Virus record (IMG/VR): IMGVR_UViG_3300042475_005188
Span: 1-24,929 of that record
DNA from: a virus
DNA length: 24,929 nt
Strand: one strand, 5' to 3'
Under the pieces are notes generated by a model. The model saw only the letters and a program-made list of their open reading frames with translations, had not been told where the DNA came from and did no database searches. Made by a program: the position numbers and the translations under genes. This document shows, piece by piece, positions 5,112-23,700 of this stretch. How positions within the stretch are numbered: position 1 is the stretch's first letter; each line of letters begins with the position of its first letter.

Positions 5112-6638
5112 TTAGTAATCAAGTTGAAGTTGCCCCTTGCGCATCAATCCGGTCAATAGATAAACCAATGCATCAACGCAGTCATCATGACTACTGACAC
5201 CAAAGTTAGTCAATTCTTCAAACATAACTGTGAAGTTGCGGAAACGATTAAAGATAATCTTGCGATCTTCAAACATGCCCATGCAACCACGGAAACGAGC
5301 TAATTTATCGGCGCGGAATCCTTTGACAGCATGCCAATTCAGGTTATATAGGCTCTCGTTCGTAAGGCATACACGTTTGAAGTCGGCCTCCAGGGATGCC
5401 TGGTACGCAACCGCCTCACTCCAGATATCACACGTGGAGTAGGTCGGGAAGTAATGACCGCCTTCATCCTTGCCAAGGATCGACCAATCGTTGAGCAACT
5501 CCTTAAGGGCATCCAGTTTTTCCAGGTTGCCCATGACGCGTAGACGTCTGTAATCAATGATGTGGATCTGGTCGCCAATGCGACCGCCAAGAACCATAAC
5601 AGTGTAATCATTTTTTTCTTTTGTCCCAACCGACAAGTCAACTCCAATACCAAGAGAATCAAACTCCGTTGCAATTTCCGCCTTGACAATCAGCTCTGGC
5701 GCCAACGACAATTCGTTTTGCCTGATGACTTGATTCATGTACTGGAACGAGAAAGCAATTGGTGCCTGTCGTTTCTTTTCCTTTAGGTAATCTAAAGACC
5801 ACATCGATGGCCAATACGACATCTCGTCCCCAGTTTTGGGATCGTTGAGGATGGCGGATAGAACAATCTGCAGCCAATTATTCTGCGGGTTGAAAGTTGT
5901 GGCATGAATGTCATCGTGTCTAAAGCGCGTACCAAGGCAGATTGCCCGACCGCCTTCAAACATGGTGGGTGCAATCACAGCATTCCAGTTGTCCTGCATC
6001 TGTTTCCTGATGTCAGGGTTGGAGATGTCCGCAGCAGATTTGATGGCGTCATCAATGATGACCAGATGTGAACGCTTGGAGGTCACCGAACCCTTAAGGC
6101 CTGCAGCGCAGAGTGTAAATTGTTCCTCACCAGTGGTATCTATGCCTGCAAACTTGTGGTCAATGGACCAGTACTCATTACTGGTAACGTTCTTTAAAAG
6201 GCGTACGGTCGGAAAGACTTCTTGGTACCGCTTGCTTTCAATGATGCGTTTAATGGTTGCCGACTTGGAACGTGCGATGTCAACCGTGTATGACAAGTAC
6301 AGGATCTGTAGCGGCAACTTGGCTGCTGTATGAACACCAATGGCCCAGGCGGTAAACAGGCCTAAAACTGTTGATTTGGCAGAACCCCGTGGTGCCAAGA
6401 GATCAACGTTCGGTCCAGCAATTTTACGTAAACAGCTACTGTCTTCGTTGGTAACAAAGTGACGATGCCATTCTTTGTGGTGTTCAGCCGGAGGTTTATC
6501 TGCTACGTATTCACAGAAAAAGCCAAAATCTTCGCGTGCCCGTTCCAGGGATTCAAGATTTCGTGGAATTCGGATTTGTTGCCTGCGAGCAGCCGCTTGT
6601 GCGTTACGACGGTATGCAAGATGTTGGTAAGCAGGCAC
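5112..6638 (-). CDS. terL: Terminase large subunit
   Basis: 508 residues, normal length for TerL. The ATPase domain shows Walker A PRGSAKST (83-90), Walker B HLVIIDDAI (191-199) and the coupling motif LGTRFRHDD (235-243). The nuclease domain has the first catalytic Asp in IGVDLS (331-336) and the late acidic cluster HDDCVDAL (484-491), as in RNase H-like terminases. It packages phage DNA into the prohead through the portal, using ATP, and cuts the concatemer. The likely start is GTG 6638, with no clear SD. It lies between small unknown genes and the membrane coiled-coil gene. All key motifs are intact. Confidence 0.97.
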   Translation of the reverse strand: MPAYQHLAYRRNAQAAARRQQIRIPRNLESLERAREDFGFFCEYVADKPPAEHHKEWHRHFVTNEDSSCLRKIAGPNVDLLAPRGSAKSTVLGLFTAWAIGVHTAAKLPLQILYLSYTVDIARSKSATIKRIIESKRYQEVFPTVRLLKNVTSNEYWSIDHKFAGIDTTGEEQFTLCAAGLKGSVTSKRSHLVIIDDAIKSAADISNPDIRKQMQDNWNAVIAPTMFEGGRAICLGTRFRHDDIHATTFNPQNNWLQIVLSAILNDPKTGDEMSYWPSMWSLDYLKEKKRQAPIAFSFQYMNQVIRQNELSLAPELIVKAEIATEFDSLGIGVDLSVGTKEKNDYTVMVLGGRIGDQIHIIDYRRLRVMGNLEKLDALKELLNDWSILGKDEGGHYFPTYSTCDIWSEAVAYQASLEADFKRVCLTNESLYNLNWHAVKGFRADKLARFRGCMGMFEDRKIIFNRFRNFTVMFEELTNFGVSSHDDCVDALVYLLTGLMRKGQLQLDY

Positions 6639-17587: not shown

Positions 17588-17771
17588 TGTAAATTAGGGT
17601 AAAACCTTAAATAGCGCGACACTTTTTAAGTTTTGGTACGTTGTGCTACAAAAGAAGGCCCCCTATAGGGTCAAAAAAGGATAAAAAATTATCTGAGGCT
17701 TCTCCAACACCCCACGCGTAGTGAAATACGTATAGAAAAAAAGAAAGGTGTGAGGGGTTGAAATAGTTATC
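17588..17771. other. Gene-free spacer upstream of the small-gene block
   Basis: No reading frame looks real. AT-rich sequence contains a CCCTATAGGG palindrome (17661-17670), CTTAAA...TTTAAG arms near 17610-17632 and several A-runs. With the leader hairpin that follows, this is the likely upstream control region of the operon starting at 17819, and it lies next to the strand-switch point. No specific site can be proved. Confidence 0.4.
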
Positions 17772-17797
17772 GGGGGCTGCGCATCCGTAGAACGCAG
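17764..17797 (+). promoter_or_regulatory. Family 4 leader hairpin, copy a, with possible -10
   Basis: GGGGGCTGCGCATCC (17772-17786) is identical to 22685-22699. CTGCG (17777-17781) pairs with CGCAG (17793-17797). TAGTTAT at 17764-17770 could be a -10 placing the transcript start near the G-run. The first gene starts 21 nt downstream, without an SD. Confidence 0.55.
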
Positions 17798-17818
17798 AGT
17801 ACCATCGCGTTTAGTTCA

Positions 17819-18130
17819 ATGCAATTGACCAAGGAAGAGCAGAAGGTTGTTGATTTCGACAACCGTTGTCAGATGGTTGCCAGCTATCTGTGGGAAGGCA
17901 AGTCTGTCACGATGACTGCGAAGCAGCTTGAGTGGTATGACGTAACGCCGCACCAAGTGATAGCGGAGCTGAGCGGTTGGCTTCGTTCGGAAGAGCAAGA
18001 AGCCTGCTGGGAAGCGGAACATCTGTATCGTGGCAGCCGCCGTGAGCGTACACATGTTGTTTACTGCACGAAGTGCGGAGACAAGTATGTGTTCAAGGCA
18101 AAGGTTGTCAAGGTATCTGACTACGTTTGA
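17819..18130 (+). CDS. Unknown protein with one CxxC
   Basis: 103 residues. The N-terminal two thirds are helical and charged (EEQKVVDFDNRCQMVASYLW, VTPHQVIAELSGWLRSEEQE). A possible HTH lies around residues 30-55. Near the end YCTKCGDKYVF has a single CxxC, half of a zinc-ribbon; another Cys at residue 17 and one at 63 could help bind metal. ATG 17819 has no SD, only an AT-rich leader after the family 4 hairpin. It is the first gene of the plus-strand array, so a regulator is conceivable but unproved. A GNRA hairpin follows its stop. Confidence 0.65.
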   Translation: MQLTKEEQKVVDFDNRCQMVASYLWEGKSVTMTAKQLEWYDVTPHQVIAELSGWLRSEEQEACWEAEHLYRGSRRERTHVVYCTKCGDKYVFKAKVVKVSDYV

Positions 18131-18142
18131 AGGTTACCTCTT

Positions 18143-18160
18143 CCCCTGGGCGACCAGGGG
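18143..18160 (+). other. Perfect 7-bp GCGA-tetraloop hairpin
   Basis: CCCCTGG (18143-18149) pairs with CCAGGGG (18154-18160), closed by a GCGA (GNRA) tetraloop and followed by TTTATG. It sits 13 nt after a stop codon and may be a weak terminator or a 3'-end stabiliser. Confidence 0.7.
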
Positions 18161-18167
18161 TTTATGT

Positions 18168-18225
18168 AGCCCTCAATACCTGCTTCGTTGATACGAATTC
18201 GTATCGCGCGTGCGGGTTTTAGGCT
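18168..18225 (+). repeat. Family 3 structured element, copy a
   Basis: AGCC (18168-18171) with GGCT (18222-18225); ACCTGC (18178-18183) with GCGGGT (18212-18217); then TT, CG/CG, and the 16-nt palindrome GATACGAATTCGTATC (18190-18205) at the tip. A TTTT run follows the second stem. The palindrome is identical in copy b (19617-19632). The outer stem differs from copies b and c. Confidence 0.65.
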
Positions 18226-18387: not shown

Positions 18388-18549
18388 GTGACCATCAACC
18401 CCACCAAGCTGCTCTCTCGCGAAGAGGTTGGCGACAAGATCATGCTTGAGATCCTTGATCTCCTTGAGCATGGTCATAGCCAGACTCTCGGAGCGCAGCA
18501 CCTCCAGGTCATCAAGTCCTACGTGGACGAGATGCTGGAGAACAACTGA
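18388..18549 (+). CDS. 53-residue helical protein, unknown
   Basis: Starts at GTG 18388 with a GGAG SD 7 nt upstream. The sequence MTINPTKLLSREEVGDKIML is followed by EILDLLEHGHSQTLGAQHLQ and an acidic end (YVDEMLENN). Helical, soluble, no motif. The initiation context ACGGAG...ACC-GTG-ACC recurs at the next gene (18635), a hint of duplication of translation signals. An upstream in-frame ATG at 18334 lies within a structured element and is rejected. Family 1 copy a starts right after the stop. Confidence 0.65.
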   Translation: MTINPTKLLSREEVGDKIMLEILDLLEHGHSQTLGAQHLQVIKSYVDEMLENN

Positions 18550-18612
18550 TCCGTTAAAGCGGGTTGGGAGGTGCAAACCCTCCCACAGTTATTGCCCCCA
18601 GCGGAGATGGGC
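18550..18612 (+). repeat. Family 1 T-loop element, copy a
   Basis: TCCGTTAAAGCGG box (18550-18562) directly after the stop codon; hairpin GGGAGG (18566-18571)/CCTCCC (18579-18584) with loop TGCAAAC; then CAGTTATTGCC and a second pairing GCCC (18594-18597)/GGGC (18609-18612). Stems differ from the other copies but pairing is kept. Confidence 0.8.
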
Positions 18613-18634: not shown

Positions 18635-18715
18635 GTGACCTTCACCGTTACCGAAACACTCACACTCGCCGCCATCTTCGTGGTGGCATGTGTGATCGGT
18701 TACATCACCGACTGA
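18635..18715 (+). CDS. 26-residue single-helix membrane microprotein
   Basis: Starts at GTG 18635 with GGAG 7 nt upstream and ends at TGA 18715. After MTFTVTET comes one continuous hydrophobic helix (LTLAAIFVVACVIGYI) and a short TD end, enough to span a membrane once. The start context nearly repeats that of 18388 (ACGGAG...CCGTGACC). Flanked on both sides by family 1 elements, it forms a complete cassette. Tiny one-pass proteins are frequent in phage early regions and often inhibit or modify host membrane complexes; the target is unknown. Confidence 0.65.
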   Translation: MTFTVTETLTLAAIFVVACVIGYITD

Positions 18716-18775
18716 TCCGTCTAAGCGGGAGGCAGGGTGCAAACCCCTGCCCAGTTATTGCCACAATCCCGTGGC
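18716..18775 (+). repeat. Family 1 T-loop element, copy b
   Basis: TCCGTCTAAGCGG (18716-18728) right after the stop; hairpin GGCAGGG (18731-18737)/CCCTGCC (18745-18751) with loop TGCAAAC; then CAGTTATTGCC and hairpin GCCAC (18760-18764)/GTGGC (18771-18775) with loop AATCCC, followed by ATCTACACCA. Confidence 0.85.
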
Positions 18776-18972: not shown

Positions 18973-18985
18973 GTTCGTATCTGAG

Positions 18986-19046
18986 TCCGTATAAGCGGCG
19001 TTCCAGGGTGCAATCCCCTGGTTCAGACTTGCCACAATCTTGTGGC
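18986..19046 (+). repeat. Family 1 T-loop element, copy c
   Basis: TCCGTATAAGCGG (18986-18998); hairpin CCAGGG (19003-19008)/CCCTGG (19016-19021) with loop TGCAATC; TTCAGACTTGCC; hairpin GCCAC/GTGGC (19031-19046) with loop AATCTT. It is preceded by a partial duplicate of its own start (TGAGTTCGTATC, then TGAGTCCGTAT). Confidence 0.85.
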
Positions 19047-19065
19047 ATTTACACCACACCATACT

Positions 19066-19263
19066 ATGGATTACACCGTCAACATCATCGAGCGTAACGG
19101 TCAGTACTTCCTCCAGGAAGTCTTTGCAATTACCGAGTTCCAGTATGTGGAACAAGTCACTGCAGGTCCGTTCCAGTCTCGATGGCAAGCAGACGTGCAG
19201 CGCTCACAGGAGTATCCGGCATACCGGGGACTAACAGATGAGTACTGCCGTCTGCAACACTGA
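19066..19263 (+). CDS. 65-residue unknown protein
   Basis: Starts at ATG 19066 behind an A/C-rich leader (ACACCACACCATACT) with no SD. The sequence MDYTVNIIERNGQYFLQEVF suggests beta strands at the start; the second half is polar with aromatic residues (EYPAYRGLTDEYCRLQH). No membrane segment. An in-frame GTG-like start further up lies inside the family 1 element and is not used. Flanked by family 1 copies c and d, it is another one-gene cassette. Not recognised. Confidence 0.65.
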   Translation: MDYTVNIIERNGQYFLQEVFAITEFQYVEQVTAGPFQSRWQADVQRSQEYPAYRGLTDEYCRLQH

Positions 19264-19264
19264 G

Positions 19265-19325
19265 TCCGTATAAGCGGCATTGGCAGGTGCAATCCCTGCC
19301 TTCAGTATTGCCACAATCCCGTGGC
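19265..19325 (+). repeat. Family 1 T-loop element, copy d
   Basis: TCCGTATAAGCGG (19265-19277); hairpin GGCAGG (19282-19287)/CCTGCC (19295-19300) with loop TGCAATC; TTCAGTATTGCC; hairpin GCCAC (19310-19314)/GTGGC (19321-19325) with loop AATCCC. The start codon of the next gene follows 20 nt later. Confidence 0.85.
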
Positions 19326-19344
19326 ATCTACTCAGCTCAACACT

Positions 19345-19593
19345 ATGCTCTGCTACTACCCTTACGAAGGTGCAACCGAGCGCATCACCTGGCATGGAGG
19401 AGAATCAACCATGCTTCACTACCAAGTGCAGGTGGATGACTACAAGGGAGATCCTGACTGGATCGACCGTTACTCCCAGACACTTGGTGGAGGTATCCCT
19501 TGTGGTACCAAAGAGTTGCTGGCTGCGATGTCTGATTACTATCAGTACATCAGCCAACTCCATCTCGACACAATGGCTGGAACTATCTTCTGA
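19345..19593 (+). CDS. Unknown 82-residue protein with two possible starts
   Basis: From ATG 19345 the protein has 82 residues; the leader is CTCAGCTCAACACT, matching other starts of this block. A second in-frame ATG at 19411 has a very strong SD (GGAGGAG, 8 nt upstream) and would give 60 residues beginning MLHYQVQVDDYKGDPDWIDR. Both forms might be made. The protein is soluble, acidic and Tyr-rich (SDYYQYISQLHLDTMAG). No motif is recognised. A family 3 element begins 2 nt after its stop. Confidence 0.65.
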   Translation: MLCYYPYEGATERITWHGGESTMLHYQVQVDDYKGDPDWIDRYSQTLGGGIPCGTKELLAAMSDYYQYISQLHLDTMAGTIF

Positions 19594-19595
19594 CT

Positions 19596-19666
19596 CCTGC
19601 ACTTAACCCTTCCGTTGATACGAATTCGTATCGGACGGTGGGTTTTCTGCAGGCAATCAAGCCTGC
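19596..19666 (+). repeat. Family 3 element, copy b, with alternative pairing
   Basis: CCTGCA (19596-19601) with TGCAGG (19648-19653); ACCC (19606-19609) with GGGT (19640-19643); CCGT (19612-19615) with ACGG (19635-19638); the tip is the palindrome GATACGAATTCGTATC. A T-run follows the second stem. GCAGGC (19649-19654) can instead pair with GCCTGC (19661-19666), excluding the outer clamp. Confidence 0.75.
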
Positions 19667-19686
19667 TGTCCAACTCAACTCAGCTC

Positions 19687-19875
19687 ATGACTAAGCTCAA
19701 CATCCGCAAGAACATTGCTGCTGCATTGTTTAACACAGCGGTAGCTATCGACAATGCCAAGCTTCCTACCAAGGAAGATATCGGTACTAAGGTGAATGAG
19801 TATCGGCTGCGTGCAGCGGCACTCATGATGCCTAACGACATGGCATTCGTCATCCAACCCAAGCAAGGTAACTGA
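19687..19875 (+). CDS. 62-residue unknown protein
   Basis: Starts at ATG 19687 after the leader AACTCAACTCAGCTC, without an SD. The sequence MTKLNIRKNIAAALFNTAVA leads into DNAKLPTKEDIGTKVNEYRL and a Met-rich end. Helical and mildly basic. Upstream in-frame codons fall inside the family 3 element and are rejected. It is followed after 3 nt by the 67-residue membrane protein, with no RNA element between, so the two form one translational unit. Confidence 0.65.
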   Translation: MTKLNIRKNIAAALFNTAVAIDNAKLPTKEDIGTKVNEYRLRAAALMMPNDMAFVIQPKQGN

Positions 19876-19878
19876 TTC

Positions 19879-20082
19879 ATGCAACGTAATTACTTTTCTG
19901 ACGCCTGTGTTGCTCTCATTCTTGGCACTGGTCTGGGTCTACTCGCTTCTGTTGGAGTACAGAAAGTTCTCAACAGACACTACCAGGCAACGTGCCATGA
20001 TCGACCAGGACACAATCTGATCTACGTCCAAGGATTCCTTGGCGATACGTACTACTGCATCAACAGTAAGTACATGAACTGA
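19879..20082 (+). CDS. One-helix membrane protein with two-Cys tail
   Basis: 67 residues. After MQRNYFSDA, residues 10-28 form a membrane helix (CVALILGTGLGLLASVGV). The tail contains C39 and C60 (QATCHDRPGHNLIY, DTYYCINSKYMN), which could make a disulfide outside the cytoplasm. The layout matches the 59-residue protein at 18793. The start lies 3 nt after the previous stop, so translation is coupled. Family 3 copy c starts 4 nt after its own stop. Function unknown; envelope action is likely. Confidence 0.7.
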   Translation: MQRNYFSDACVALILGTGLGLLASVGVQKVLNRHYQATCHDRPGHNLIYVQGFLGDTYYCINSKYMN

Positions 20083-20085
20083 TCT

Positions 20086-20144
20086 CTGCACTTAAGCCTT
20101 CTCATCCTTGTGATGAGTGGCTTTTCTGCAGGGTTCTCCCTGCA
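20086..20144 (+). repeat. Family 3 element, copy c, with alternative pairing
   Basis: CTGCA (20086-20090) with TGCAG (20127-20131); AGCC (20095-20098) with GGCT (20119-20122); CTCATC (20101-20106) with GATGAG (20112-20117). Linkers CTTA, TT, T and TTTC match copy b. TGCAGGG (20127-20133) can instead pair perfectly with CCCTGCA (20138-20144). Confidence 0.8.
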
Positions 20145-20172: not shown

Positions 20173-20418
20173 ATGACTCCTAAAGCTGTTGAATATCTCC
20201 TGACCCAAGACGCTCGTCTGCTTGCCAGGAGAGATGCCCCTTGCATCGACCAAGAACTTGAGGCGCAGCGTCAAGCTGCTCTCGAGTTATTCTTCGAGTG
20301 GCAAGACGGTATGCGTCAATTCCAAGACCTTGTTCCCTTCGTTGCCATCGTGCAGCGTAAGGTAGATCTCAACCGGGATCTGCTGCGGTGGGAACGCAAG
20401 CAACTGGAACAAGACTGA
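20173..20418 (+). CDS. 81-residue charged helical protein
   Basis: Starts at ATG 20173 (GGAG only 3 nt upstream, so the SD is probably not ideal). The protein is a run of charged helices: MTPKAVEYLLTQDARLLARR, EAQRQAALELFFEWQDGMRQ, VAIVQRKVDLNRDLLRWERK. Coiled coil or helical bundle likely; no membrane segment. Longer in-frame starts lie in the family 3 element. A UUCG-capped hairpin follows the stop by one nucleotide. Not recognised. Confidence 0.65.
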   Translation: MTPKAVEYLLTQDARLLARRDAPCIDQELEAQRQAALELFFEWQDGMRQFQDLVPFVAIVQRKVDLNRDLLRWERKQLEQD

Positions 20419-21321: not shown

Positions 21322-21331
21322 CGTCAATCAC

Positions 21332-21380
21332 CTGGGCCTTCGTTGTTGAGAATCATTCGCAACAAGGATGTAAGTCCCAG
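21332..21380 (+). repeat. Family 2 structured element, copy b
   Basis: CTGGG (21332-21336) with CCCAG (21376-21380); inner stem CCTT(c)GTTG with CAACAAGG (21360-21367); 3' bulge ATGTAAGT. TCAAT lies just before the stem, as in copies c and d. The inner stem is longest in this copy. Confidence 0.75.
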
Positions 21381-21410
21381 CTTACCTGTAAACCTTCCAA
21401 CAACATTCCA

Positions 21411-21785: not shown

Positions 21786-21791
21786 TCAATA

Positions 21792-21821
21792 CCTGGGCAT
21801 CCACTGTGTGTAAGTCCCAGG
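21792..21821 (+). repeat. Family 2 structured element, copy c
   Basis: CCTGGG (21792-21797) with CCCAGG (21816-21821), a CATCCAC...GTG mini-hairpin and the TAAGT bulge (21811-21815). TCAAT precedes it. It is the shortest copy; the leader TTTACTCAGCTCAACCC and an ATG follow. Confidence 0.75.
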
Positions 21822-21850
21822 CTTTACTGTCCATTTACTCAGCTCAACCC

Positions 21851-22674: not shown

Positions 22675-22710
22675 TATAATAACAGGGGGCTGCGCATCCT
22701 ATAAACGCAG
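22675..22710 (+). promoter_or_regulatory. TATAAT box and family 4 leader hairpin, copy b
   Basis: TATAAT (22675-22680) is followed by GGGGGCTGCGCATCC (22685-22699), identical to 17772-17786. CTGCG (22690-22694) pairs with CGCAG (22706-22710). This fits a transcript starting in the G-run. No clear -35 is present. An ACACGTGT palindrome (22661-22668) lies just upstream, between divergent genes. Confidence 0.65.
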
Positions 22711-22730
22711 ACACAATCTCAACTCAAACC

Positions 22731-23628: not shown

Positions 23629-23656
23629 ATGCCAATACTACAGTCATAGCCTCAAT

Positions 23657-23697
23657 CCTGGGCAGCACTTACGTAAGTACGGTGCATAAGTCCCAGG
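23657..23697 (+). repeat. Family 2 structured element, copy d
   Basis: CCTGGG (23657-23662) with CCCAGG (23692-23697), inner GCAC (23665-23668) with GTGC (23682-23685), bulge ATAAGT. TCAAT lies directly upstream. The opposing 75-residue gene ends 4 nt after it. Confidence 0.75.
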
Positions 23698-23700
23698 TTT

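Follow-up and report, generated by a model that had tools for sequence, protein, structure and literature searches.

A stop-codon-anchored intercistronic RNA element with two conserved, mutually exclusive folds in relatives of Synechococcus phage S-EIVl

How phages keep tightly packed small genes on one message separately expressed is poorly understood. The window, a stretch of 24,929 nucleotides (IMG/VR virus record IMGVR_UViG_3300042475_005188, positions 1 to 24,929), is a phage contig whose kin is Synechococcus phage S-EIVl. Its left half carries structural genes, including a terminase, on the opposite strand, and its right half is an operon of small genes with no recognised function. Among these genes a sequence-only reading had picked out two copies (b and c) of a terminator-like stem whose flanks could pair in two mutually exclusive ways, and had suggested an attenuator or switch. 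Are both pairings real, and what might they do? Comparison with related phages, which form a family of freshwater cyanobacterial viruses, indicates that this is a real, undescribed RNA element and that both of its folds have been kept by evolution.

The element is about 70-90 nt in size and is built from three short strands and one stem. A UGA stop codon is followed after one base by strand 1 (7 nt, NNCTGCA), a 4-nt linker (often CTTA) and the stem P2; then come a second 4-nt linker (UUUC, UUAC and others), strand 2 (TGCAGNN), one base, the triplet UCA and a short loop; strand 3 (NNCTGC), a leader of 19-32 nt and the start codon of the next gene complete the order. Strands 1 and 2 pair as P1 and strands 2 and 3 as P3, strand 2 being common to both. 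The internal loop between P1 and P2 has 3-4 nt on each side, with an almost invariant UU on its 3' side, and the U-tract after P2 has UU in nearly all copies and mostly reads TTTTCTGC. The position of P1 one base behind the UGA, the pairing of UGA with UCA and the placement of P3 at 19-32 nt before a start codon had escaped the sequence-only reading.

Both copies in the window lie on the plus strand. Copy b follows the ORF at 19345-19593, whose UGA (19591-19593) forms a 5' extension of P1; strand 1 (TCCTGCA, 19595-19601) leads through the linker CTTA to P2 (19606-19643), a terminator-like stem of the form ACCC-TT-stem-T-GGGT with the palindromic apex GATACGAATTCGTATC. After the linker TTTC comes strand 2 (TGCAGGC, 19648-19654), the 3' strand of P1 or the 5' strand of P3, and then strand 3 (GCCTGC, 19661-19666), 20 nt before the ATG at 19687. 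Copy c follows the ORF at 19879-20082 (UGA at 20080-20082) and consists of strand 1 (CTCTGCA, 20084-20090), again with the linker CTTA, P2 (AGCC-TT-CTCATC..GATGAG-T-GGCT, 20095-20122), the linker TTTC, strand 2 (TGCAGGG, 20127-20133) and strand 3 (CCCTGCA, 20138-20144), 28 nt before the ATG at 20173. The shared linkers, the joint changes in P2 and both alternative partners of strand 2 are thus present in the window as had been described. Between UGA/UCA and the 7-bp helix one base on each side stays unpaired (columns 5/68 of the 40-sequence alignment A1; window 19594/19655 and 20083/20134); in 28 of 40 rows these two bases are the same letter (C/C, T/T or A/A) rather than complementary.

A third, diverged copy was recovered by a covariance model (E=7e-8) on the plus strand at 18127-18194, after the ORF at 17819-18130. 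It reads TGA-A-GGTTACC..TGTAGCC-C-TCA, with a compensatory change in the P1 core (GGTTAC/GTAGCC; G-C to A-T), and its P3 is weak. The next gene start lies far downstream, and the weak P3 fits the idea that P3 belongs to the next gene, in this single case. What the sequence-only reading called 'copy a' probably corresponds to this third copy, or else to the palindrome hairpin immediately following (18179-18219).

Relatives were collected by scanning IMG/VR and from homologues of the gene before copy c. The first IMG/VR pattern was too loose and returned mostly chance matches inside genes, so two stricter patterns were used. The search demanded TGCAG in strand 2 and GA before P1. Candidates were stretches with an imperfect seven-base pairing around a hairpin, and selection required at least five of the seven P1 pairs, including at least four of the inner five. 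One false member was removed from 104, leaving 103 distinct copies at 62 loci, all of which encode proteins of the S-EIVl/window type; these counts are of related sequences, all from one phage lineage, and the statistics carry no phylogenetic correction. Usually 2-8 copies per phage are clustered within a few kb in one operon, and a few records, among them S-EIVl (E=6e-14), have one copy by the covariance model, which recovers copy b at E=2.7e-13 and copy c at 1.3e-15. It found no copies in four unrelated phages. Rfam covariance models gave no family match and only a chance microRNA-model match elsewhere (E=0.15, below the gathering score); the single match in GTDB cellular genomes, in Pseudomonas, was a chance match without the element's structure, and the element is not described in the literature searched.

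The apex of P2 is highly variable (ACCC-TT-...-T-GGGT, CCCATC...GATGGG, AAGGGGC-UUCG-GCCCUUU and others) and has been exchanged for other stems, even for a whole gene. In three related contigs the apex holds an antisense GIY-YIG-like ORF (L020 10138-10476, L055 7172-7477 and L069 1916-2221, all on the minus strand), around which the flanking P1, the base of P2 and P3 remain; the same insert occurs in L140 and L154, where it is cut by the contig end. The domain match, made for L020 only, has E=0.0017 and lies below the curated cut-off. Bases of the element itself form the ends of the ORF, whose target may be the palindrome GATACGAATTCGTATC.

Conservation of both pairings is the central result. 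In alignment A1, 93.2% of P1/P2 cells are paired, against 77.7% in shuffled alignments and 38-48% when the strands are slid by 1-3 columns, and the P1/P2 covariation score is 0.431 against 0.146 shuffled. The complete inner five pairs of P1 occur in 87 of 104 copies; with selection asking for five of seven pairs, the outer P1 pairs were therefore nearly free to vary, and they were seen as UA/GC/CG at one position and CG/UG/UA/GC/AU at the other. At these outer positions P3 is paired in 101 of 102 copies (shuffled maximum 86) and in 92 of 102 (shuffled maximum 60). One test had been set in advance, namely whether homologues keep only one of the pairings: both are kept in 57 of 59 non-redundant copies at the first, most variable position (shuffled maximum 51) and in 44 of 59 at the second (shuffled maximum 34). 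At these two positions strands 1, 2 and 3 change together in the triples C/G/C, T/G/C, T/A/T, T/G/T, G/C/G and A/T/A. The 103 copies, with their alignment and shuffling controls, place the family beyond chance and bear out the proposal of two conserved, exclusive pairings; on this comparative evidence it is nearly certain that both are under selection and that the structure has two folds.

The strand on which the element acts can be read from its wobble pairs. U-G combinations on the sense strand (T in strand 1, G in strand 2) occur at two P1 positions in 31 and 22 of 104 copies, whereas the C/A combination, the equivalent of an antisense wobble, was seen once at the wobbling pairs. Every full-scoring copy is sense-oriented and lies after a gene, antisense matches being low-scoring mirror images. 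Because the P1 wobbles are of the sense kind and the strong matches always lie in sense with the genes, the sequences argue that the element acts as sense RNA and not as DNA.

The element is anchored to the end of the upstream gene. An upstream ORF can be identified for 98 copies, and in 75 of them exactly one base separates its stop codon from the 7-bp P1; about a quarter of copies have the stop 1-21 nt further upstream, some beyond the reach of a ribosome. The codon is UGA in 87 of 98 copies, compared with 7 of 18 structural genes of the window, and its G and A pair with the first two bases of the conserved UCA; for the remaining U-A pair of UGA/UCA, no compensation was seen where the U is replaced. 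GA was present in 52 of 53 copies of the first pattern set, which did not demand it, the one exception (the first copy of L124) having AA opposite TT. In L156 the gene before copy c ends in TAA and is without the element, and it ends in UGA where the element is present. Readthrough of the stop codon into the downstream frame was considered and rejected: copies b and c are in frame, but the frames of the relatives are mixed.

Spacing is also regular on the downstream side. In about 100 of 103 copies the next start codon is co-directional and lies 16-106 nt further on, and strand 3 ends 19-32 nt before it in about 90 of 100, with a G-poor leader (9% G) between them. The minimum of about 19 nt would suit a P3 placed right beyond the edge of an initiating 30S subunit. 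The sequences themselves show no effect on the downstream gene.

The best explanation offered by these features, held tentatively and at somewhat under even odds, is a cis-acting, sense-strand intercistronic RNA of three strands and two folds that is opened by the ribosome terminating at the UGA. In the closed fold, strand 1 pairs with strand 2 around P2, the helix being lengthened by UGA/UCA. By computed folding energies this fold lies below the open one (P2+P3) in 82 of 103 copies; across all copies the closed fold is lower by a median of 3.3 kcal/mol, 16 copies lie within 0.5, and in copies b and c the two folds come out almost equal (-32.0/-31.9 and -26.7/-25.9 kcal/mol, closed/open). Since the footprint of a ribosome at the UGA takes in strand 1, translating the upstream gene would have to open P1 and allow P3; strand 2, once freed, would refold with strand 3 whenever the upstream gene is translated. 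The P3 hairpin of the open fold would then sit close by the next gene's start region without entering it. A likely use is to separate neighbours, with P2 capping the end of one message and P3 standing at the head of the next one's unstructured leader. Ribosome switching by itself does not explain the U-tract that follows P2.

The same separation could be brought about by cleavage. An RNase III-type enzyme would recognise P1, the C/U-rich internal loop and P2 as one double-stranded substrate; if it cut the loop on its 3' side, P2 and its U's would become the 3' end of the upstream message, and strand 2, set free, would form P3 and so cap the 5' end of the downstream one. Such a processing site, as the main account rather unlikely on the sequence features at hand, would agree with the arrangement of stem, internal loop and stem between co-transcribed genes, with the near-invariant UU in the loop's 3' side and with the closed fold being usually the more stable in intact RNA, and refolding after the cut would explain the presence of strand 2 in both helices; anchoring at the stop codon, however, is not required by it. 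A cut in the P1/P2 loop would free strand 2 just as a terminating ribosome would. With either driver, we infer, the two messages would be parted at the border they share.

It is more doubtful that the element is chiefly a weak intrinsic terminator, in which P2 and UUUUC would partly terminate transcription between genes and so grade expression, P1 and P3 being secondary. The hairpin is stable, GC-rich and directly before UU, and the median T-tail score of 4.37 exceeds that of random tails starting with TT (3.29), yet it stays below those of the strong terminators at the convergent junction (5.05 and 5.22). Co-directional genes flank the copies, which are not placed at operon ends, and the conservation of P1 and P3, both of which can form only after the U-tract is transcribed, goes unexplained.

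An attenuator or riboswitch controlled by a metabolite or protein, the function first suggested, now appears very improbable. Two exclusive folds beside a U-tract and upstream of start codons do recall one, but P3 uses only bases 3' of the U-tract and does not compete with P2, which is intact in both states, so P3 cannot be called an antiterminator; RNA polymerase must be past the U-tract before the clamp P1 can form. The genes on either side of nearly every copy are co-directional, and an operon carries several copies beside unrelated small genes. The flanking genes have no recognised function and the freely replaced apex of P2 offers no conserved binding pocket, which speaks against a metabolite switch. 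Least probable of all is that the element is just a palindrome or mobile repeat at the DNA level, without a role as RNA: the palindromic apices, the variable copy number and the insertion of a GIY-YIG-like ORF into the apex, seen in several contigs, would suit this reading, but not the constant sense orientation and anchoring at stop codons, the restriction of wobble pairs to the sense-RNA kind or the three-strand covariation.

A second, unrelated fold in the same operons, F1, bears on the preferred reading of a ribosome-opened element. In all 70 of its distinct copies the stop codon, UGA or UAA, occupies the same place to within one base, inside a basal helix that shows compensatory changes. 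A translation-linked role for the element is made likelier by this, since the F1 basal helix is also built on a stop codon. The two might represent an undescribed class of 'termination-sensing' RNA switches, with the stop codon in the basal helix and the fold reset by each terminating ribosome; this wider proposal is speculative and for the present doubtful. If true, the terminating ribosome would hand the message to the next gene, and at least two unrelated folds (the element and F1) would use the principle. The dozens of natural compensatory triple mutants of this small two-state RNA in the isolated S-EIVl lineage make the link between termination, RNA refolding and the next gene directly testable.

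Copies of F1 lie in the window at 18545-18596, 18711-18762, 18981-19068 and 19260-19347, and in S-EIVl (L001) at 5718 and 6012. F1 combines a mini-hairpin (CCG/CGG) with a hairpin of 6-7 bp whose 7-nt loop resembles a T-loop (TGCAAAC/TGCAATC), and a further hairpin follows some 20 nt ahead of the next start; pairing of a D-arm-like with a T-arm-like hairpin is suggestive of a fold like the tRNA elbow. A different family of intergenic stems, CCTGGGC...[stem]...TAAGTCCCAGG, occurs in the window at 21330-21395, 21789-21825 and 23655-23700 and in L001 at ~8030 and ~8740. A repeated leader, GGGGGCTGCGCATCC...ACGCAGA, stands before the first gene of gene runs (window 17770-17798 and 22683-22711; L001 ~5440). 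S-EIVl also has a recurring intergenic motif, TCCT(A/G)AG(C/T)ATGAC..TAAA (L001 near 6500, 9950 and 10700), and at one such site relatives carry the two-fold element instead.

Several known systems share parts of this design. In ribosome-mediated attenuators of the trp leader type, strand 1:2 pairing alternates with 2:3 pairing; the element has the same logic, and a ribosome at its stop codon could cover strand 1. Unlike the trp attenuators, it has an upstream ORF that is a full gene and a terminator-like stem inside it; its P2 is compatible with both states rather than one only, no strand 4 or terminator hairpin was found as its alternative, and no control codons stand out. Intercistronic RNase III sites of phage T7 consist of stem, internal loop and stem between phage genes, an arrangement that the element repeats between cistrons of one message with putative cleavage; it differs from them in its built-in refolding partner, strand 3, and in its stop-codon anchoring. 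Its GC-rich P2 followed by U's resembles an intrinsic terminator, from which it departs in its short, interrupted U-tract, mid-operon location and clamp beyond the U-tract, and unlike REP-like mobile palindromes it is placed by orientation, in sense only. The structured RNAs manA, wcaG and PhotoRC-II are known from cyanophages, manA being reported from potential 5' UTRs (Weinberg 2010, PMC2864571). Like them, the element is a structured RNA of cyanophage; unlike them it has no Rfam match and is multi-copy, intercistronic and anchored at a stop codon.
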